Source: a virus. From it: a DNA stretch of 44,956 nt. The notes beneath the pieces were generated by a model that was given only the letters and a program-made list of their open reading frames with translations, was not told the origin of the DNA and did no database searches. The stretch spans positions 1 through 44,956 of the IMG/VR virus record IMGVR_UViG_3300043540_000934; one strand, written 5' to 3'. Below, one piece after another: positions 11,232-21,894 of the stretch. The first letter of the stretch is position 1, and each line of letters starts with the position of its first letter. Made by a program: the position numbers and the translations under genes.

Positions 11232-12550
11232 CGGACATCACGCCCTCCGACACCCAGTCGCGCGCTATCGCGGCGATCAAGGACTGGTTCAAGACCGAAA
11301 GCAGCAAGCGACAGATATTCCGGCTGTTCGGCTATGCCGGGACCGGCAAGTCGACCGTCCTGAAGTTCGCCCTTGCCGAGCTCGGGCTCGAACCGCACAA
11401 GAGCGAGCGCGACGGAGGCGCGTGCGTGCCTGGCGTCGTAACGGCGACCTTCACCGGCAAGGCCGCCCTGGTGCTCCGGCGCAAGGGCACTTCCGCGCGC
11501 ACCATCCACAGCCTGATCTATAGCGTCGTAGTTGCGACTGACGAGGAGATCGAGGCCGCGGCGAAGAAGATCGAAGAGGCGGAGGCGAACGCGCGCGCGC
11601 TGAGCGGCTTCGAACGCACCGCCGCCGAGGCAGCGATGGAGGCGATGCGCCAGGCGCTGTCGCAGATGAAGAAGCCGCGCTTTGCGCTTAACCCGCAGAG
11701 CGACGCCGCGCACGCCAAGCTGATCGTGCTCGACGAGGTCTCGATGGTCGGCGAGGAGATGGCGCGCGACCTCATGAGCTTCGGCAAGCCCATCCTGGTG
11801 CTCGGCGATCCCGGCCAGCTGCCGCCGATCAGGGGCGAAGGCGCGTTCACCAACGACGCGCCCGACATCATGCTGACCGAGACCCACCGGCAGGCGGAGG
11901 AGAGCGCCATCATCCGGCTCGCCACCATGGCGCGTCGCGGCGAGCCGATCGGCTTCGGACAGTACGATACCTTTGTCTGGAAGATGCGCAAGATGGACGT
12001 GACGCCGGAGCAATGCCTGCGTGGCGGCCAGGTGATCTGCGGTCTCAACGCCACGCGGCTGCAGCTCAACAACGCGATGCGGCGCGCCGCTGGGTTCGGC
12101 GGCGGCTATCTCCCGACGGGCCAGGGCGAGAAGATCATCTGCCTCAAGAACCAGAACGACATCGGCTTGATCAACGGCATGTTCGTCACGCTCGAAGATG
12201 TTGTCGATGAAGGCACCCTCTATTTCTCGGCCATCGTGCGCGACGAGGAGGGCAATGCGATCGGCCGCCCGAATGGGGACGGCAAGCCGGAGCGGCTGCG
12301 CGTCTACAAGGGGCACTTCGAGGACCATGTCGCGTTCGATCGGGATCGGCACGACCGCGACTGGAAGAACAAGCGCCTTTTGACGGAGGCCACCTATGGT
12401 TGGGCGATCACCGGCCACAAGTCGCAGGGTTCGCAGTGGGAGAACGTCATCGTCTGGGATGACGGACTCGGCCGCAACGACGCCGACCGGCGCCGCTGGC
12501 TCTACACCGTCATCACGCGCGCCGAGCGGGGACTGGTGATCCTCGCATGA
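11228..12550 (+). CDS. RecD-like superfamily 1 DNA helicase
   Basis: At 440 aa, this SF1 helicase has a Walker A (GYAGTGKST, residues 35-43), a Walker B (DEVSMVG, D169), motif III-like GDPGQLPP, THRQAEES, and a C-terminal UvrD_C_2 segment (GHKSQGSQWENVIV; YTVITRAERGLVIL). It is shorter than RecD2 and lacks an obvious extra N-terminal domain. It likely unwinds DNA in phage replication or recombination. The start at 11228 is set by the ATGA overlap with the nuclease gene; its own TGA overlaps the primase-helicase ATG. Confidence 0.85.
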   Translation: MTDITPSDTQSRAIAAIKDWFKTESSKRQIFRLFGYAGTGKSTVLKFALAELGLEPHKSERDGGACVPGVVTATFTGKAALVLRRKGTSARTIHSLIYSVVVATDEEIEAAAKKIEEAEANARALSGFERTAAEAAMEAMRQALSQMKKPRFALNPQSDAAHAKLIVLDEVSMVGEEMARDLMSFGKPILVLGDPGQLPPIRGEGAFTNDAPDIMLTETHRQAEESAIIRLATMARRGEPIGFGQYDTFVWKMRKMDVTPEQCLRGGQVICGLNATRLQLNNAMRRAAGFGGGYLPTGQGEKIICLKNQNDIGLINGMFVTLEDVVDEGTLYFSAIVRDEEGNAIGRPNGDGKPERLRVYKGHFEDHVAFDRDRHDRDWKNKRLLTEATYGWAITGHKSQGSQWENVIVWDDGLGRNDADRRRWLYTVITRAERGLVILA

Positions 12551-15060
12551 TCGATCTCAACGAGGTCTGGCGGCCGCCGGTCCGGTACGACCTCGAGGAA
12601 ATCCGGGAACGACTCTGCGCGACGGCAGCCGAATGGCTGCCGCAAATGTTTCCGCATGCGCGGATGTCGGCCGATGGAAAGACCCTGCGCTGCGCAGACC
12701 TGTCCGGGCGTGCGCCGCGCAACGAGGGCTCCTGCGTCATCCATCTCCGCGGACCGCGTGCGGGTTGGGGCTACGACCATGCGACCGGCGAGTGCGCCGG
12801 ACCGATCGATATGGTCCACCATGGCACCGGACTCACGCCGCCGGCGCTGTTCGACGAAGCTGCTCGCTACGCTCGACTGGACCGGCCAGCGCCAGCGCGG
12901 CCGGCCCCTGCAACGTCGGACCACACCCACGAGGTGGCCCGAATCCTTGCCGGCTGTGCACCGCTCGCCGGCACGCTCGCCGAGCGCTACCTGCAGGCGC
13001 GAGGTCTTCGTGATCCCGCCTCACCCGATCTGCTGTTCAATCCGGACCTGGCGGACTTCGAGACGCGGCGTGGCTGGCCCGGCATGGTGGCGCGTGTCCG
13101 CAACAGCAGTGGCGAGTCAACCGGGGGCATCCATCGCACGTTCCTGCTTGACGACGGCTCTGGCAAGGCGCCGGCGGGCAAGAAGATGCTGGGGCCCGTC
13201 GCCGGCGGATCGGTGCGGCTGTTTGCAATCGGGAATAACGGTCATCTCGGAATCGCCGAAGGCATCGAGACGGCGCTCGCCGCACACGTCATCTTCGGAA
13301 TTCCAACCTGGGCTGCGCTCTCCGCCGACGGCCTGCGGAAATGGGAATGGCCGCAAGACATCAAGCGCGTCACCATCTTTGCGGATGCGGGTGAGGCCGG
13401 CCAGCTGGCTGCCGCGGCGCTCGCCGAACGCCTCGATCTCGCAGGCATCCCGAACGTGATCGTCTCGCCGCTGCATGGCGACGACTTCAATGACGACCTG
13501 TGTCGGGGCGCGACTGCCGGCGACTATTCAGTCATGCTTCCGCGAGCCGCACCCGTGTTGACTACAGTAGCCGATTTCGAATCGGCGGCCCGTGCATTGA
13601 CGAAGCCGCCCGAGCTGCAGGCGCTCGGCACGATCTTGGGCCAGATCGTCACTGCACGGTTGGAACCCCTGCCCGAGCGGCAGGTGGTGAGCTCAATCAA
13701 GGCGGCCACCGGAATCCCGGTCGCGATCCTCGAAAGGCAGATCGGCGAGTTGCGTCGCCGACTGAATAGCACGGGCGACATTCACCGGCAGCCAATGCGT
13801 CCACGATGGGCGAGCCAACTGCGTCTCGACCTCGCCGGCACGCCCGAGCGCAACGAGGCGAATGTGATTACAGCGCTCTGTAACGACGAGGCATTCGCCG
13901 GCGCGCTGGTATTCGACGAATTCCGCCAGGAGATCCTGGTCATCCGCGAGCTCCCCTGGGAGCACCCCTGCAGCCTTCCTCGACAGTGGAGCGAAGTCGA
14001 TGATGTGCGTTGCGCCGAATGGCTGCAGCGTCGAGAGATCAATGTCAGTCCCGCCACGGTGAGTCGTGGCATCAACGCCGTGGCGAGAGAGATATGCGTT
14101 CACCCGGTACGTGACTATCTCAATAGCGTCCGGTGGGACGAGGTGCCGCGCCTGGAGCAGTGGACGATCACATATCTGGGCGCCGAGGATACGGCACTCA
14201 ACAAGGCGTTCGGCGCGCGCTGGATGCTCTCGGCCGTCGCACGCATCTTCCAGCCGGGGTGCAAAGCCGATCACATGCTGATCCTCGAAGGAGCTCAAGG
14301 CGCAAAGAAATCGACCGCACTGAAGACGCTCGCCGGCGCGTGGTTCACCGATGAGCTGGCCGAGATAGGCAGCAAGGACGCGGCGCAGCAGATGCGCGGC
14401 ATCTGGATCATCGAGATCGCCGAGCTCGATGCGATCAGCCGCGCCGAGGTGTCTCGCATCAAGGCCTTCCTGACGCGGACCACCGACCGTTACCGTCCTC
14501 CCTATGAGCGCTACGTTGTCGAGGTGCCACGCCAGTGCGTGTTCGCCGGCAGTGTCAATCCCGAGACCTATCTGCGCGACGAGACCGGCAACCGGCGGTT
14601 CTGGCCCGTGCGTTGTCGAAGCATCGATCTCGATTCGCTTGCCCGCGACCGCGACCAGCTCTGGGCGGAAGCCGTCGTCCGTTATCGACAAGGCGCGATC
14701 TGGTGGCTCGATGAGCCGGAACTCATTGCCGACGCCAAAGCGGAGCAGGATCAGCGGTATCAAGCAGACGCCTGGGATGCGAGGATCGACCGCTGGCTCG
14801 CCTATGAACGGCGCAGGGTGAATCACGGCTACGGCAATTACGACGATTGGCGTGACGAGGAAGTGCCGCGCACAGCGCCGTTGACGGATATCTCGGTCGG
14901 CGAGGTGCTCGAACACGCGCTCGGCATCGAGGCCGCGCGGTGGACCAGGGCCGATCAAATGCGCGTCGGGGCCTATCTCAAGACGAGGCAGTGGGAGCGA
15001 TATCAAGCGCGCAAGGGCGCTTTCCGTGAATGGCGGTATCGCAAAGACCAAAACCTGTAA
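12547..15060 (+). CDS. Toprim primase fused to VapE-type SF3 helicase
   Basis: This 837-aa fusion has a Toprim-like domain at about residues 230-320 (IAEGIETALAA; VTIFADAGEAGQ) and a VapE (virulence-associated E) SF3 helicase in the C-terminal half: GAQGAKKST at 582-590, IWIIEIAELDA, FAGSVNPETYLRD, TGNRRFWPV. In place of the usual GxGKS/T the loop reads GAKKS, with Lys at the position before the P-loop lysine. Proteins of this build initiate replication of phages and of phage-inducible islands. The start overlaps the helicase stop (ATGA). The repeat-rich region 15101-15275 follows and may be its origin. Confidence 0.85.
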   Translation: MIDLNEVWRPPVRYDLEEIRERLCATAAEWLPQMFPHARMSADGKTLRCADLSGRAPRNEGSCVIHLRGPRAGWGYDHATGECAGPIDMVHHGTGLTPPALFDEAARYARLDRPAPARPAPATSDHTHEVARILAGCAPLAGTLAERYLQARGLRDPASPDLLFNPDLADFETRRGWPGMVARVRNSSGESTGGIHRTFLLDDGSGKAPAGKKMLGPVAGGSVRLFAIGNNGHLGIAEGIETALAAHVIFGIPTWAALSADGLRKWEWPQDIKRVTIFADAGEAGQLAAAALAERLDLAGIPNVIVSPLHGDDFNDDLCRGATAGDYSVMLPRAAPVLTTVADFESAARALTKPPELQALGTILGQIVTARLEPLPERQVVSSIKAATGIPVAILERQIGELRRRLNSTGDIHRQPMRPRWASQLRLDLAGTPERNEANVITALCNDEAFAGALVFDEFRQEILVIRELPWEHPCSLPRQWSEVDDVRCAEWLQRREINVSPATVSRGINAVAREICVHPVRDYLNSVRWDEVPRLEQWTITYLGAEDTALNKAFGARWMLSAVARIFQPGCKADHMLILEGAQGAKKSTALKTLAGAWFTDELAEIGSKDAAQQMRGIWIIEIAELDAISRAEVSRIKAFLTRTTDRYRPPYERYVVEVPRQCVFAGSVNPETYLRDETGNRRFWPVRCRSIDLDSLARDRDQLWAEAVVRYRQGAIWWLDEPELIADAKAEQDQRYQADAWDARIDRWLAYERRRVNHGYGNYDDWRDEEVPRTAPLTDISVGEVLEHALGIEAARWTRADQMRVGAYLKTRQWERYQARKGAFREWRYRKDQNL

Positions 15061-15100
15061 CCCGGCCATCCTCAGAAATTCAAACCAAGGGCGCTATCCA

Positions 15101-15275
15101 GGTGGTGACTGGTGACAAGATGGTGACAGAAATTCTCAAGCGAGAACAAGAGTGTCACCACTGTCATCACCTGCACCACCTTCTAGTAAACATACATGTG
15201 AGAGACGTAATCCAATATATTTCCCCTTATGGAATCGCTTAGAGGACCCCGTCGGTGACTGGTGACATGGTGACA
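15101..15275. other. Iteron array around AT-rich core, putative replication origin
   Basis: Direct repeats of GGTGAC(A/T) occur at 15104, 15111 and 15122, and again at 15254, 15261 and 15269. Inverted copies lie at 15153-15171. Segments 15101-15128 and 15153-15180 form an imperfect inverted repeat (both arms GGTGGTG...GGTGACA). Between the two direct-repeat sets lies an AT-rich stretch (15181-15238). This layout, next to a VapE-type initiator gene, resembles SaPI origins, in which iterons flank an AT-rich region. It fills most of the 335-bp gap between genes; no convincing gene lies there. Confidence 0.6.
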
Positions 15276-15395
15276 GCTCTGGGTCCCGCGGAAAAACGTA
15301 CCGGCATTTCTTTTTTTGCTTGATCGGCCACACTCGCGCGCCATAACGTCATCGTCGACCTAAGCCGAAGGCCCACGTCCTCGTGAGTCTTCGTT

Positions 15396-15932
15396 GTGAA
15401 ACCCTCCACATCATCTCCGCCATCATGCGCGCGCGATCCCGCCGCAAAGCTGTTTTGTGGTGACGGGTCTGCAGTCCTTGCTCTCGATCTCGGCTCGTCT
15501 ACTGGCTGGGCGCTCCGTGGACCAAACGGCGCCGTCACCAGCGGCGTACAGCAGTTCCGACCGAACCGCTTCGAAGGCGGCGGCATGGCCTTCCTGCGTT
15601 TCAATCACTGGCTCAGCGAAGTCGCGGAGAGCTCAGGCCCGATCAGCGCGGTGTTCTTCGAGGAAGTGCGCGCACACGCCGGCACGCTTGCCGCGCACGT
15701 CTATGGCGGCTTCCTTGCGCACCTGGAAGCGTGGGCCGAATTCCGCGACGTGCCGTACCAAGGCGTACCGGTCGGGACGATCAAGCGGTTCATCGCCGGC
15801 AAGGGCAACGCCGACAAGAAAGCCGTCATCGCAGCCGTGAAGGCCCGCGGCTTCGCGCCGGCCGATGACAACGAAGCCGATGCGATCTCGATCCTGCTCT
15901 GGGCAATCGAGAACTACGGAGGCACGTCATGA
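15396..15932 (+). CDS. RuvC-like Holliday junction resolvase (phage type)
   Basis: The 178-aa protein has the RNase H-like resolvase signature: ALDLGSSTGWAL near residue 30 (first acidic residue), VFFEEVR in the middle (catalytic Glu), and ADDNEADAISILLW near the C-terminus (paired Asp). It would resolve branched DNA before packaging. The only in-frame start before the first motif is GTG at 15396, giving an unusual ~25-residue N-terminal extension, so translation may start elsewhere. The stop overlaps the next gene (ATGA). Confidence 0.8.
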   Translation: MKPSTSSPPSCARDPAAKLFCGDGSAVLALDLGSSTGWALRGPNGAVTSGVQQFRPNRFEGGGMAFLRFNHWLSEVAESSGPISAVFFEEVRAHAGTLAAHVYGGFLAHLEAWAEFRDVPYQGVPVGTIKRFIAGKGNADKKAVIAAVKARGFAPADDNEADAISILLWAIENYGGTS

Positions 15933-17196: not shown

Positions 17197-18588
17197 ATGA
17201 CGCCGCGCCTGCCCGATGCGGTCGAGCACTGGCCGCTCGATCGGCTGGTTCCCTACGCGCGCAATGCCCGGACGCACGACGACGACCAGGTCGCGCAGAT
17301 TGCGGCCTCCATTGTCGAGTTCGGCTGGACCAATCCAATCCTGGTGGACGCAGAGGGCGGTATCGTCGCCGGCCATGGCCGGCTGCTGGCGGCACGCAAG
17401 CTCGGCATCGACACGGTTCCAGTCGTCGTTCTCGACCATCTGACTCCAGCACAGCGGCGCGCATACGTCATCGCCGACAACAAGCTGGCGCTGAACGCCG
17501 GCTGGAACGAGGAGCTGCTGGTATCGGAACTGCATGCACTGAATGGCGAGGGCTTTGATCTTGAACTCACCGGCTTCTCCGACGCCGAGCTGGACGCGTT
17601 TATGGCGCCGCTCGGTGATAAGCCCGAGGCCACCGACGGTGACGGCGAAGACGCCGCTGACGATATGCCGGCACCGCCCCGCGAGGCGGTCTCTCGCTTG
17701 GGCGACCTCTGGCTAATCGGCAAGCATCGGCTGCTATGCGGCGACAGCACCGACCTCTTGACGGTGACGCGCGTCATGAATGGCGAGCGCGCGGTGCTCG
17801 TGTTCACGTCGCCGCCTTACGGAAACCAGCGCGATTACACCACCGGTGGCGTCGGCGATTGGGACGCGCTGATGCGCGGCGTGTTTGCAGCGTTGCCGGT
17901 CGCGGACTCAGCCCAAGTCCTGGTCAATCTTGGGCTGGTCCACCGCGATAACGAATGGCAGCCCTATTGGCAGGCCTGGCTCGACTGGATGCGCGAGCAG
18001 GACTGGCGCCGCTTCGGGCTCTACGTCTGGGACCAGGGTCCGGGATTGCCGGGCGACTGGAACGGGCGGCTCGCGCCGGCCTTCGAGTTTGTCTTCCACT
18101 TCAATCGCAGGGCGCGCAAGCCAAACAAGATCGTGCCCTGCAAGTGGGCAGGCCACGTCAACGACACGCACGGCGGCATCCGCCACAAGGACGGGCACGT
18201 CGGCGAATGGACGCACGCCGGCCAGGGCGTCCAGGAGACGCGGATCCCCGACAACGTCATCCGTATCACGCGGCACAAGGCGCGCGGCATCGAGACCGAG
18301 CACCCAGCGGTATTCCCGGTGGCACTGCCGGAATTCGTGATGCGCGCCTACAGCAACGAACGCGACATCCTCTATGAGCCCTTCGCGGGTTCGGGCACCA
18401 GCATCATCGCCGCGGAACGCACCGGTCGACGCGCCAGAGCAGTGGAGCTCGCGCCCCAATACGTCGATGTCGCGCTCCGCCGGTGGCGCAAACTCTTTCC
18501 CGATCAGCCGGTGGAACTCGATGGCGAAGGCCAAACCTTCGAAGCGGTCGCGCGAGCGCGCGGGGTCGCAATCCCCGACGACGAATGA
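17197..18588 (+). CDS. ParB-domain DNA methyltransferase, SPPY type
   Basis: This 463-aa fusion has a ParB-like N-terminal domain (DRLVPYARNARTH; IVAGHGRLLAARKLG; residues ~10-110), an acidic linker (~145-165), and a methyltransferase domain with catalytic TSPPYG (S205-Y208) before the SAM-binding FAGSGT (396-401). This is the beta-class order. SPPY is most often linked to N4-cytosine methylation, though specificity cannot be read from sequence alone. No restriction enzyme is adjacent, so it is probably an orphan phage methylase that protects phage DNA or marks regulatory sites. Its 3' end overlaps the next gene by 68 bp. Confidence 0.85.
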   Translation: MTPRLPDAVEHWPLDRLVPYARNARTHDDDQVAQIAASIVEFGWTNPILVDAEGGIVAGHGRLLAARKLGIDTVPVVVLDHLTPAQRRAYVIADNKLALNAGWNEELLVSELHALNGEGFDLELTGFSDAELDAFMAPLGDKPEATDGDGEDAADDMPAPPREAVSRLGDLWLIGKHRLLCGDSTDLLTVTRVMNGERAVLVFTSPPYGNQRDYTTGGVGDWDALMRGVFAALPVADSAQVLVNLGLVHRDNEWQPYWQAWLDWMREQDWRRFGLYVWDQGPGLPGDWNGRLAPAFEFVFHFNRRARKPNKIVPCKWAGHVNDTHGGIRHKDGHVGEWTHAGQGVQETRIPDNVIRITRHKARGIETEHPAVFPVALPEFVMRAYSNERDILYEPFAGSGTSIIAAERTGRRARAVELAPQYVDVALRRWRKLFPDQPVELDGEGQTFEAVARARGVAIPDDE

Positions 18589-19834
18589 TCAGCTGCAGGT
18601 CGAGCTCTGGCCAATCGACCGGCTTCTGCCCTATGCGGCGAACGCCCGGACCCATCCCGACGAGCAGGTCGCTCAGATTGCTAGCTCGATCGCGGAATTC
18701 GGCTTTAACGTGCCGTGCCTGGTTGACGACCGCGGAGTGCTCATCGCCGGCCACGGGCGGATCGTCGCAGCCAAGCGGCTTGGTCTGCAGCAGGTTCCGG
18801 TCATCCGCCTCGGGCATCTGACCGATGCCCAGGCGCGCGCGTTTCGCCTCGCCGACAATCGCATTGCGCTCAACGCCGGTTGGGACGACCAACTGCTCTC
18901 TGCCGAGCTGGAGCGGCTCAAGGAGGATGGCGTCGATCTCGCCTCGCTCGGGTTTGCCGAGGACGAGCTCGATCGACTGCTCAACGAACTCAACGGAGAT
19001 GGGGCAGCGGAGGGAGAGGATGAAGTCCCGGATCCGCCTGCCCAGGCGGTCACCCGGCCCGGCGACCTTTGGCTGCTTGGACCGCATCGCCTGCTGTGCG
19101 GTGACGCCACAGTTGCTAGTGACGTCGGGCGTCTCCTCGATGGCGCGCATCCGCACCTGATGGTGACGGACCCGCCCTATGGCGTCGAGTACGATCCCAA
19201 CTGGCGAGTCGAGTCCGGCGTTTCCTCGACTGCGCGGCCCGGCAAGGTCAACAATGACGACCGCGCCGATTGGCGCGAGGCCTGGAGCCTGTTTCCGGGG
19301 GACGTCGCCTATGTCTGGCACTCGGGGATTTACGCGCGGACCGTGGCGGAAAGCCTCGATGCCTGCGGCTTCCTGATCAGGGCGCAGATTGTATGGGCCA
19401 AACCCCGCCTGGTGCTGAGCCGCGGCGATTATCACTGGCAGCACGAACCGTGCTTTTACGCGGTGCGCAAGGGCGCGAGCGGCCATTGGCAGGGCGCGCG
19501 CGATCAAACCACGTTGTGGACCATCGCCACCGGCGAGAACGACGAGGCGACCGAACACGGGACGCAGAAGCCGGTCGAATGCATGCGCCGGCCGATCGTC
19601 AACAACAGCGCGAAGGGCGATCTCGTCTATGAGCCCTTCGCTGGATCGGGTTCGACCCTGATTGCTGCCGAGTCCGTCGGCCGCGCCTGCCTCGCCATCG
19701 AAATCGACCCGCGCTACTGCGACGTAGTCATCGAGCGTTGGCAGCGCCACGCACGCGGGACGGCGACGCTTGCCGACGATGATCGCACCTTTGATGCGCT
19801 GAGAGACGAACGGCAAAACGCCGCCGGGGGTTGA
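18521..19834 (+). CDS. ParB-domain DNA methyltransferase, DPPY type
   Basis: The 437-aa protein is a paralogue of the preceding gene product: ParB-like domain (DRLLPYAANARTH; LIAGHGRIVAAKRLG), acidic linker, then DPPYG (D217-Y220) and FAGSGS (373-378). DPPY suggests N6-adenine methylation. It also contains ATEHGTQKP, typical of this methylase class. The ATG at 18521 lies inside the upstream gene with GGTGGA six bases before it; no later start precedes the ParB domain. The pair probably arose by duplication and divergence, giving two different modification activities. Confidence 0.85.
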   Translation: MAKAKPSKRSRERAGSQSPTTNDQLQVELWPIDRLLPYAANARTHPDEQVAQIASSIAEFGFNVPCLVDDRGVLIAGHGRIVAAKRLGLQQVPVIRLGHLTDAQARAFRLADNRIALNAGWDDQLLSAELERLKEDGVDLASLGFAEDELDRLLNELNGDGAAEGEDEVPDPPAQAVTRPGDLWLLGPHRLLCGDATVASDVGRLLDGAHPHLMVTDPPYGVEYDPNWRVESGVSSTARPGKVNNDDRADWREAWSLFPGDVAYVWHSGIYARTVAESLDACGFLIRAQIVWAKPRLVLSRGDYHWQHEPCFYAVRKGASGHWQGARDQTTLWTIATGENDEATEHGTQKPVECMRRPIVNNSAKGDLVYEPFAGSGSTLIAAESVGRACLAIEIDPRYCDVVIERWQRHARGTATLADDDRTFDALRDERQNAAGG

Positions 19835-20470: not shown

Positions 20471-20478
20471 TCATGCAG
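20463..20478. repeat. Inverted repeat at the transposase stop codon
   Basis: CTGCATG-GT-CATGCAG is a perfect 7-bp inverted repeat with a 2-bp spacer, spanning the TGA of the transposase (20471-20473). It may help end the transposase transcript or may be part of the element's recognised end. Confidence 0.4.
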
Positions 20479-21502
20479 CGGCAGCCAGCGCCGGGTCTCT
20501 GTAATCCTCGCCCTTCGTCAGCATGGCCCAGATTGCGCGGGCCATCTTGTTCGCCAGCGCGATCGCAACCAGCATCTTCGGCTTGCGCTCCAGCATCCGT
20601 GCCAGCCACGAGCCTGCGGCGATGGATTTTTGCCCGAGCCAGTTGATCCGCGACATGGCGCCCATGATGAGCAGGCGCCGGATGTCAATCTGTCCGGCTT
20701 TGGAGACACGCCCCAGCCGCTCCTTGCCGCCCGAGGAATGCTGGCGCGGCACAAGGCCGAGCCAGGCGGCGAAGTCGCGGCCCCGCCGAAACGAGCTCAT
20801 GTCGGGAGCGAAGGCTTCGACCGCAAGCGCGATGAGCGGGCCGACCCCGGGCATCGTCTGCAGTCGCCGAGCTGTGTCCGTCTGGGTGGCCAGTGCCTTG
20901 ATCTGCTTCATCCGCGCGTTGATGCGCGTGCTCGCCTGGGCGATCTGGTCGAGCAGGTCCCGGCATTCCGCGCGAACCAGCTCGGGAATGGCACTCGCCG
21001 GATCCTCGACGAACGCCGAAATCCGTTTGATCGCAACCAGCCCCTGCGGAAAGCTGTGGCCGAACTCGTAGAGATGCGAACGGAGCGCATTGATCAATTC
21101 GGTACGGTGGTGCACGAGCCTCGCCCGGCTGCGGAACAGAACGGCGCGCGCCTGGGCGGCCTCATCCTTGGGCTCGACGAAGCGCATATCGGGACGCTGC
21201 GCCGCGGTGACGATCGCCTCAGCATCGGCAGCATCGTTCTTCTGGCGCTTTACGAAGGGACGGACATATTGGGGCGCGATCAGCTTCACCTCATGTCCAA
21301 GGCGGGTAAGTTCACGACTCCAGAAATGCGCACCCGCGCAGGCCTCCATCACCACAACTGCCGGAGGGTGCTGGGCCATGAACCTTTCGAACTGTAGGCG
21401 TGAGAGCTTCTTGCGAAACTGCACGTGCCCCGTCATCGAGGCGCCATGGAGCTGGAAAACACGCTTTGCCAAATCGACGCCGATCATCGTATCTTTCGTC
21501 AC
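20471..21502 (-). CDS. IS110-family transposase (DEDD/serine recombinase)
   Basis: The 343-aa protein has the DEDD RuvC-like N-terminal domain (IGVDLAKRVFQLHG; VVMEACAGAHFW; KNDAADAEAIV) and the C-terminal transposase_20 domain (LQTMPGVGPLIALAVEAF; FAAWLGLVPRQHSSGGK with the conserved serine region). It moves the element through a bridge-RNA-guided reaction in studied IS110 members. The GTG at 21502 gives the typical VTKDTMIGVDLAK start; the ATG at 21487 is an alternative. The frame is intact, so the element may be active. Confidence 0.9.
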   Translation of the reverse strand: MTKDTMIGVDLAKRVFQLHGASMTGHVQFRKKLSRLQFERFMAQHPPAVVVMEACAGAHFWSRELTRLGHEVKLIAPQYVRPFVKRQKNDAADAEAIVTAAQRPDMRFVEPKDEAAQARAVLFRSRARLVHHRTELINALRSHLYEFGHSFPQGLVAIKRISAFVEDPASAIPELVRAECRDLLDQIAQASTRINARMKQIKALATQTDTARRLQTMPGVGPLIALAVEAFAPDMSSFRRGRDFAAWLGLVPRQHSSGGKERLGRVSKAGQIDIRRLLIMGAMSRINWLGQKSIAAGSWLARMLERKPKMLVAIALANKMARAIWAMLTKGEDYRDPALAAAA

Positions 21503-21623
21503 GGTTGCCGTCCCTTCTGCTTGTGGTTCTGAAGACCACCTTTTTGGCACACTGCGATGCCGTCTGAAGAGGGCGGCAACCACCCCATCTTCTACGACCC
21601 CGAGCCCCGCGTTGGAGCGGGGC
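21503..21623 (-). ncRNA. Putative IS110 bridge RNA region
   Basis: On the minus strand, 5' of the transposase start, a perfect 7-bp hairpin (GCCCCGC/GCGGGGC, 21604-21623) is followed by a ~79-nt stem-loop closed by GGTTGCCG (21503-21510) with CGGCAACC (21574-21581). A further hairpin (GTGGT 21523-21527 with ACCAC 21535-21539) lies inside. A 5' stem-loop followed by stem-loops with internal loops is the published build of IS110 bridge RNAs, encoded upstream of the transposase. The loops could not be matched to target or donor sequences by eye. Confidence 0.45.
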
Positions 21624-21648
21624 AGAGCACTTGTGGGGCGGAAGCCAA

Positions 21649-21894
21649 TCAGCTTCGGCGCGACAGGACGCGGTCCATGGATTGCTGGAAGGTTTCGTTG
21701 GGAAGCGCAGTCTCGGCGGCCTGCCGGATCACGCCAAATACGACGAGCTGTACGCGCCTGACTGCCTGTTCGAGTGTCTCTCCGGGCTGGACCCGCGCGC
21801 CGCAATTCGCCAGGAATTTTCGGAGCGCCGGCTCGCGCGCGGCGGCGACGCGCGCGCGAATCTCTGCGGGCGAAAGGCCACCCCAGTCATCCAT
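21649..21894 (-). CDS. Small unknown protein beside the IS110 element
   Basis: The 81-aa product starts MDDWGGLSPAEIRARVAAAR and is helical and polar; I do not recognise a family. The start is firm: AGGAGG lies about nine bases before the ATG at 21894. It ends (SMDRVLSRRS) at the edge of the IS110 upstream region, so its C-terminus may have been trimmed by the insertion. It is divergent from the terminase genes, with ~116 bp between that must hold both promoters. Confidence 0.6.
   Translation of the reverse strand: MDDWGGLSPAEIRARVAAAREPALRKFLANCGARVQPGETLEQAVRRVQLVVFGVIRQAAETALPNETFQQSMDRVLSRRS

Follow-up and report, generated by a model that had tools for sequence, protein, structure and literature searches.

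In SaPI and PICI origins, which lie 3' of the initiator gene, an AT-rich segment is bordered by two sets of iterons (PMC6092414; PMC7581432). The C-terminal domain of SaPI Rep acts on iterons located directly downstream of its own gene (PMC7581432), and the PICI rep-ori replicates autonomously (PMC6092414). Cch2 of SCCmec is a self-loading helicase, whose C-terminal domain was shown in vitro to bind iterons just downstream of the gene (PMC7581432). The alpha protein of P4 is a primase-helicase with a C-terminal origin-binding domain. In the O/ori system of lambda, a member of a mosaic phage family, initiators are type-specific and each goes with its own iterons. These iterons are located within the O gene, and O brings in the helicase of the host. 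In lambdoid phages, ectopic cognate origins block the phage (PMC4488673). No description of origins or iterons for VapE phages was found in the literature searched.

Here we describe an iteron array behind the Toprim/VapE primase-helicase gene of the virus record IMGVR_UViG_3300043540_000934, analysed over its full length of 44,956 nt (further referred to as the window). The array is likely to be a replication origin of SaPI/PICI-like plan bound by the primase-helicase; the support is strong but inferential, as neither replication nor binding has been shown.

Array and proposed initiator gene in the window

The array and the genes on both sides of it comprise the following features.

12547–15060, plus strand: Toprim-VapE primase-helicase, 837 aa, the proposed origin-binding initiator (Pfam, PHROG, PDB)
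14899–15045, plus strand: winged-helix domain, codons 785–833 (AlphaFold2 model of the last 105 aa, mean pLDDT 84.6)
14947–14949, plus strand: codon of R801, covarying with CCAC/CCAAC
14968–14970, plus strand: codon of G808, CCAC (G) versus CCAAC (S/T/A)
14998–15000, plus strand: codon of R818, covarying with the base that precedes the single A of the iteron (C versus A/T)
15004–15006, plus strand: codon of Q820, covarying with the fourth base of the iteron (Q with A, K/R with C)
15102–15110, 15109–15117 and 15120–15128, minus strand: left outer iterons, three units (T)GTCACCA, from sequence
15153–15161, 15162–15170 and 15172–15180, plus strand: left inner iterons TGTCACCAC, TGTCATCAC and TGCACCACC, respectively, from sequence
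15183–15253, no strand: AT-rich core of 71 bp, 42% GC, candidate unwinding site, from composition
15254–15275, minus strand: right inner iterons, three units, the plus strand reading GGTGACTGGTGACATGGTGACA, from sequence
15396–15932: RuvC-like resolvase, the next gene 3' of the array
15457–15465, minus strand: lone outlying unit CGTCACCAC, outside 15101–15275

The hexamer GGTGAC starts at 15104, 15111 and 15122 on the plus strand, at 15154 on the minus strand, and at 15254, 15261 and 15269 on the plus strand again. Thus 15101–15275 holds seven copies (both strands) in 175 bp, while no more than three were observed in simulated windows (200 order-2 Markov runs over the whole window). The total for the whole window is 45 copies, with 20.7 expected. 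Two of the three left inner units are imperfect, and one nucleotide (c) separates TGTCATCAC from TGCACCACC; in relatives this block is matched by two or three plus-strand units. The core, with its 42% GC, is poorer in GC than most of the window (about 65%). The left half (15097–15183) is a genuine dyad, folding as a single strand with −21.2 kcal/mol (z −4.5), which was equalled by none of 200 shuffles; the right half gave no fold in the same test. The outlying unit may possibly be a remnant of an outer right set. No second array was seen in the window, and the one present is shorter and less regular than those of most relatives.

The array lies outside the initiator gene, in contrast to iterons of the lambda O type: 41 bp separate it from the primase stop codon (15058–15060). 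In Pfam the protein matches Toprim_3 (2.7e-25), VapE-like (2.1e-85) and DUF7146, and its PHROG annotation is DNA helicase/primase. The helicase part has a sequence match in PDB to 7pds (PriRep1, "similar to D. nodosus vapE", 2e-63). In the AlphaFold2 prediction, the C-terminal winged helix has a recognition helix at residues 801–813 and wing strands at 816–823 and 826–833. Foldseek with this model returned PriRep1–dsDNA chains as the best rows, but weakly (prob 0.84–0.91), and the structural alignment with PriRep1 is a weak fold match as well (Z 6.1, rmsd 2.8, 74 aligned residues). A PDB sequence search by the winged-helix profile gave no meaningful match. The full-length primase model was left unused (mean pLDDT 67, helicase part unresolved).

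The head and packaging genes of the window encode terminase gpA, a lambda-type portal, capsid E and a tape measure protein. The early module runs in the order Sak4-like protein, PHROG_2300 protein, Cas4-type exonuclease, SF1 helicase, Toprim-VapE primase-helicase, RuvC-like resolvase. An IS110-family transposase gene (DEDD_Tnp_IS110 and Transposase_20; 20471–21805, minus strand) is situated between the early genes and the terminase, and two adjacent ParB-like/N6-N4 DNA methyltransferase fusion genes occupy 17197–18588 and 18374–19834. A promoter-like stretch followed by a conserved leader, GACCAAAGCCGAAGGCCCAC-N-GTGAGCCTTC, lies between the array and the RuvC-like gene in the window (15359–15395) and in 107 of 159 relatives. 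The leader hairpin ends just 5' of the RuvC-like start codon, at the expected position of the ribosome-binding site. The leader could possibly be a regulatory RNA, with no Rfam match. An Rfam scan of 14800–15800 yielded no family above the cut-off, the lone sub-threshold match (a snoRNA) being due to chance.

The preliminary description had reported GGTGAC repeats in two sets around an AT-rich segment 3' of a Toprim/VapE gene, which held by copy number, core composition and Pfam matches. Its 80-bp imperfect dyad held as a real dyad; what it took for the second arm is actually three more iterons in the opposite orientation (15153–15180). The phage was rightly called lambda-headed, given its gpA-type terminase, lambda portal and capsid E, and its proposed alphaproteobacterial origin fits the nearest relatives of the window, which are from Pseudolabrys and Hyphomicrobiales.

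Comparison with described origins

The SaPI-like plan claimed earlier also held and matches the published PICI and SaPI origins (PMC6092414, PMC7581432). The window has two iteron sets around an AT-rich segment, as in the definition given in the legend to Fig. 2 of PMC6092414, and the array is immediately 3' of the initiator gene, as it is in many relatives, others having inserted genes. The initiator, like Rep and Pri-Rep, is an AAA+ helicase with a C-terminal domain, here a predicted winged helix whose DNA binding is inferred. There are three differences. The window phage has its own terminase, portal and capsid genes and hence is not a helper-dependent satellite as PICIs are; the array of the phage family has dyad symmetry in its full form, where outer iterons occur singly and in pairs; and a residue-level specificity rule is visible in this family.

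In P4, crr is directly 3' of the alpha gene, and its iteron TGTTCACC resembles TGTTCCCAC/TGTCACCAC, with 9-bp spacing. However, crr consists of two 120-bp direct repeats and is accompanied by a separate ori, whereas in the window one array is seen with no separate ori and crr, and its iteron is TGTCACCAC-like rather than type I TGTTCACC. No sequence similarity was found between the winged-helix domains of the window and of P4 alpha (hhalign probability 0.1%), nor was the P4 domain among the listed fold matches. Unlike in lambda, the proposed initiator of the window is a helicase in its own right, and the array follows its gene. Cch2 of SCCmec belongs to the D5/Primase_Cterm family and is encoded in a staphylococcal cassette with three AAGTG iterons.

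Survey of related loci

Primase scans provided 80 viral loci, 80 loci from bacterial genomes (nearly all titled Alphaproteobacteria) and further viral loci. A recognisable array was found behind the Toprim/VapE primase gene in 159 of 199 unique (non-identical) loci, mostly from alphaproteobacterial phages and prophages. No array was found in the other 40; some of these sequences end too soon, and the rest remain unexplained. The window and one relative (L002) were assigned to the iteron class GTCACCAC by hand. Automatic classification had placed the window in class N (GTTACCA), which came from a chance cluster elsewhere in the window and was rejected.

The full form of the array is dyad-symmetric and may be written as [++][-][+++] AT-rich core [---][+][--], with iterons of 8–11 bp. 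The common orientation patterns are +++-++/--+-- (30 loci), ++-++/---+-- (13), ++-+++/---+-- (12) and ++-+++/---- (12), the slash marking the core. The core has a median length of 75 bp and a median GC content of 0.46 in relatives. The array often directly follows the primase stop codon; elsewhere genes intervene, and it is found up to about 5.7 kb downstream. The window groups with L002, L003 and L009 in a small set that has minus-strand units at the left edge. The plan is constant, and the iteron word is nearly uniform within one array but variable between loci: the words include GTCACCAAC, GTCACCAC, GTCCCAC, GTCCCAAC, GTCCAAC, GTCCTAC, GTTCCCAC, CCCCAC and others. The array observed in the window is a short version of a widespread element located 3' of the Toprim/VapE gene.

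When 385 genomes of one class were searched for held-out loci, the centre genome was the only one recovered. Scans with array words, not linked to the primase, covered 13 records, of which 7 carry this primase, the others being different phages, fragments and coding repeats. Three AT-rich viral contigs (L264, L272, L273) have no VapE match above the cut-off and yet carry TGTCCCACC repeats; in L264 a Prim-Pol/DUF5906 primase is near these repeats, its start being about 0.7 kb away. The word TGTCCCACC may possibly serve another initiator family too. One more record (L251) has GTCACCAAC and GGGTGAC repeats beside an integrase gene, with no VapE primase found on it.

Correlated iterons and primase residues

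All 842 columns of the primase alignment were ranked by association (U) with iteron features. Residue 820 ranked first for the choice between A and C before CC(A)AC (U=0.98, the runner-up having 0.65): Q is present in 36 of 36 scorable A loci, and K or R in 121 of 121 scorable C loci. For CCAC versus CCAAC the first rank went to residue 808 (0.95), followed by 801 (0.79), with the next column at 0.52. All 69 scorable CCAC loci have G808, and S, T or A is found in 79 of the 80 scorable CCAAC loci; at residue 801, K occurs mostly with CCAC and R with CCAAC, the R of the window being unusual for its class. For C versus A/T before the single A, residue 818 (0.86) was level with the gap-rich column 825 (0.87). 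In the alphaproteobacterial set R818 accompanies C in 62 of 62 loci and K818 accompanies A/T in 13 of 14. The same rule was seen in 66 Pseudomonas phage loci, with R and GTCCCAC in 34 of 34 and K and GTCCTAC in 32 of 32, many arrays in this set being near-identical and those of the vB_Pae_U5 type being mixed (five GTCCCAC and four GTCCTAC). Exceptions to the rules are L032 (GTCACCAAC with G808) and L052 (GTCCTAC with R818).

The words and classes were defined on the data on which they were then tested, except for the Pseudomonas set and the loci found by array words first. The latter agree with the rules: L277, L276, L281, L279 and L280 have GTCCCAC with G and K/R, and L278 and L275 have GTCACCAAC with S or T plus Q. 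Several of them are relatives of loci already used, or the same records.

Shared ancestry was considered using a tree of alignment columns 1–770, from which the C-terminal region is excluded. The A/C feature changes 13 times on this tree, compared with 30–35 times in shuffles; residue 820 and the joint state also change 13 times each. The CCAC/CCAAC feature changes 24 times, and residue 808 and the joint state 25 times each. Columns of the RuvC, SF1 helicase, Cas4, PHROG_2300 and Sak4 proteins served as controls. In control sets of at least 84 loci their maxima were 0.71 (A/C) and 0.31 (CCAC/CCAAC), whereas residues 820 and 808 scored 0.95–1.0 on the same loci. Two small control sets (7 to 40 loci) reached 1.0 for a feature, because this value is attained there by many columns, N-terminal ones of the primase among them.

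Since the winged helix and the array are usually linked, joint recombination alone would yield a part of the correlation. Covariation resulting from joint transfer cannot be fully separated from selection for matching; nevertheless, a functional link is indicated by the concentration of the signal on four residues and by displaced arrays, for which the rules hold at 1–5.7 kb from the primase. We infer that such covariation is the signature expected of an initiator and its binding sites, although there are no binding data. As the iterons change in step with three to four primase residues, the pair constitutes a lock-and-key protein–DNA code readable from sequence alone.

Given the predicted extent of the recognition helix, residues 801 and 808 are two turns apart. 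The model places 818 and 820 in the first wing strand, and 801 and 808 would be on one face of the helix, the shared faces being inferred from spacing. Q with A, and R or K with G opposite C, are textbook contacts.

Probable exchange of the winged helix and the array

Among pairs of primases with identity of 0.88–0.95 in the rest of the protein, winged-helix identity is 0.94–0.98 for pairs of the same class and 0.67 for pairs of different classes. Pairs of switched class show a drop in DNA identity towards the 3' end of the primase gene. For L018/L021 the drop, from 0.95 to 0.44, occurs within the final 100 nt, and identity remains low over the array. Similar drops, some of them beginning about 300 nt before the stop codon, were observed in L028/L031, L159/L208 and L128/L153, and a weaker one in L089/L109. 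In L020/L021 identity is back to 0.99 about 600 nt downstream, the exchange tract of about 600 bp covering the array and the last primase codons, with flanks 93–99% identical. Recombination of the recognition domain together with the array is the simplest reading and a likely one, inferred from sequence; rapid divergence is not excluded.

A bolder reading, which we hold no more probable than its opposite, is that the winged helix and the array form a replication-specificity cassette swapped as a unit, like immunity regions. There would be a dozen or so origin types with a three- to four-residue code, and a swap would protect a phage from titration by a resident prophage origin or from parasitism by a satellite with the same iterons. 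Co-resident prophages were observed in three genomes: L052 and L070 (IMG genome 2894460714), L136 and L155 (Gemmobacter nectariphilus), and L137 and L157 (Paracoccus). The iteron classes differ in two genomes (F/G, C/E) and coincide in one (E/E), too few to judge avoidance.

Phages beyond the alphaproteobacterial clade

The primase of Pseudomonas phage vB_Pae_U5 has 37% identity to that of the window over half its length. The winged helix of the Pseudomonas phages is related to that of the window (hhalign 97%), the array is present and the rules are obeyed. Pseudomonas phage Haddon also encodes a primase closely related to that of U5. Behind the primase gene there are seven copies of a TGTCCC-type 6-mer in vB_Pae_U5, eight of GGTCAC in Marinobacter phage PS3 and seven of ACTGAG in Rhodobacter phage RcCWillis, each count exceeding the maximum of 200 simulations. 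The VarioGold array (five copies) was not above chance. Given the arrays in U5, PS3 and RcCWillis, the plan seems common to phages with Toprim/VapE and related primases, with differing words.

Alternative explanations

The array could be mainly a transcription operator, through which the primase or a co-evolving regulator controls the next operon, starting with the RuvC-like resolvase. In its favor, the conserved promoter-like stretch and leader hairpin follow within about 260 bp of the array in 107 of 159 loci, and several arrays displaced from the primase keep this neighbor. On the other hand, an operator would need far fewer sites than the dozen or so that surround the AT-rich core over some 280 bp, the Pseudomonas, Marinobacter and Rhodobacter phages have genes annotated as hypothetical, and not as resolvase, behind the array, and a scan of the region in the window found no σ70-type promoter or terminator. 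We consider a mainly operator function highly improbable. As a promoter-like sequence often follows the array closely, an operator role cannot be ruled out; it is possible as an additional one, and a helicase that binds the origin could regulate its own expression without the array ceasing to be an origin.

The array could also be an accessory or secondary element, such as a partition site, an RNA hairpin or a counterpart of P4 crr, if replication starts at some other place. P4 requires both ori and crr, and it is crr, with TGTTCAC units 9 bp apart, that is 3' of the alpha gene. In addition, the two ParB-like/methyltransferase genes are nearby, and the left half of the array folds well single-stranded. 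Against this, though with ParB-like genes outside the covariation comparison, most relatives have one iteron cluster in the array-finder output, no Rfam family scored above the cut-off, and the right half has no fold; we give this explanation very little weight.

Finally, that a different phage protein binds the array and initiates, the primase tail being merely genetically linked, is suggested by the winged-helix codons adjoining the array and probably being exchanged with it, but is most improbable given that the best columns of five neighboring proteins stay below residues 820 and 808, that the rules hold for distant arrays, and that covariation concentrates on four residues rather than being spread evenly over the domain.

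Proposed function and implications

We therefore return to the origin reading, proposed in the preliminary description and supported here by inference, with a replication start at this place not shown. Conservation of the repeats in relatives bears on it: the architecture is conserved, and the array sequence covaries with the primase winged helix. The sequences show that the architecture is conserved, that the covariation centres on the winged helix, and that winged helix and array change together in the examined pairs; it is inferred that the protein physically binds the array, that the core melts, that helicases are loaded there and replication proceeds in both directions, and which contacts are made. 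In the proposed mechanism, the C-terminal winged helix of the primase-helicase would bind the iterons 3' of its gene, a step supported by covariation only. By analogy, the blocks, being oppositely oriented, would each load a helicase ring, the two rings facing one another from either side of the core, the AT-rich core would melt, and the Toprim domain would prime. Residues 801 and 808 of the recognition helix may read CCAC/CCAAC, and residues 818 and 820 of the wing strand, the preceding bases.

Among the phages and prophages of Alphaproteobacteria and Pseudomonas the plan seems to be widespread. With about 13 and about 24 switches of the two iteron features, these phages represent a naturally repeated experiment on the recognition code of a winged-helix initiator. 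Origin specificity, origin incompatibility between prophages and the prediction of origins from the primase sequence thereby become directly testable.
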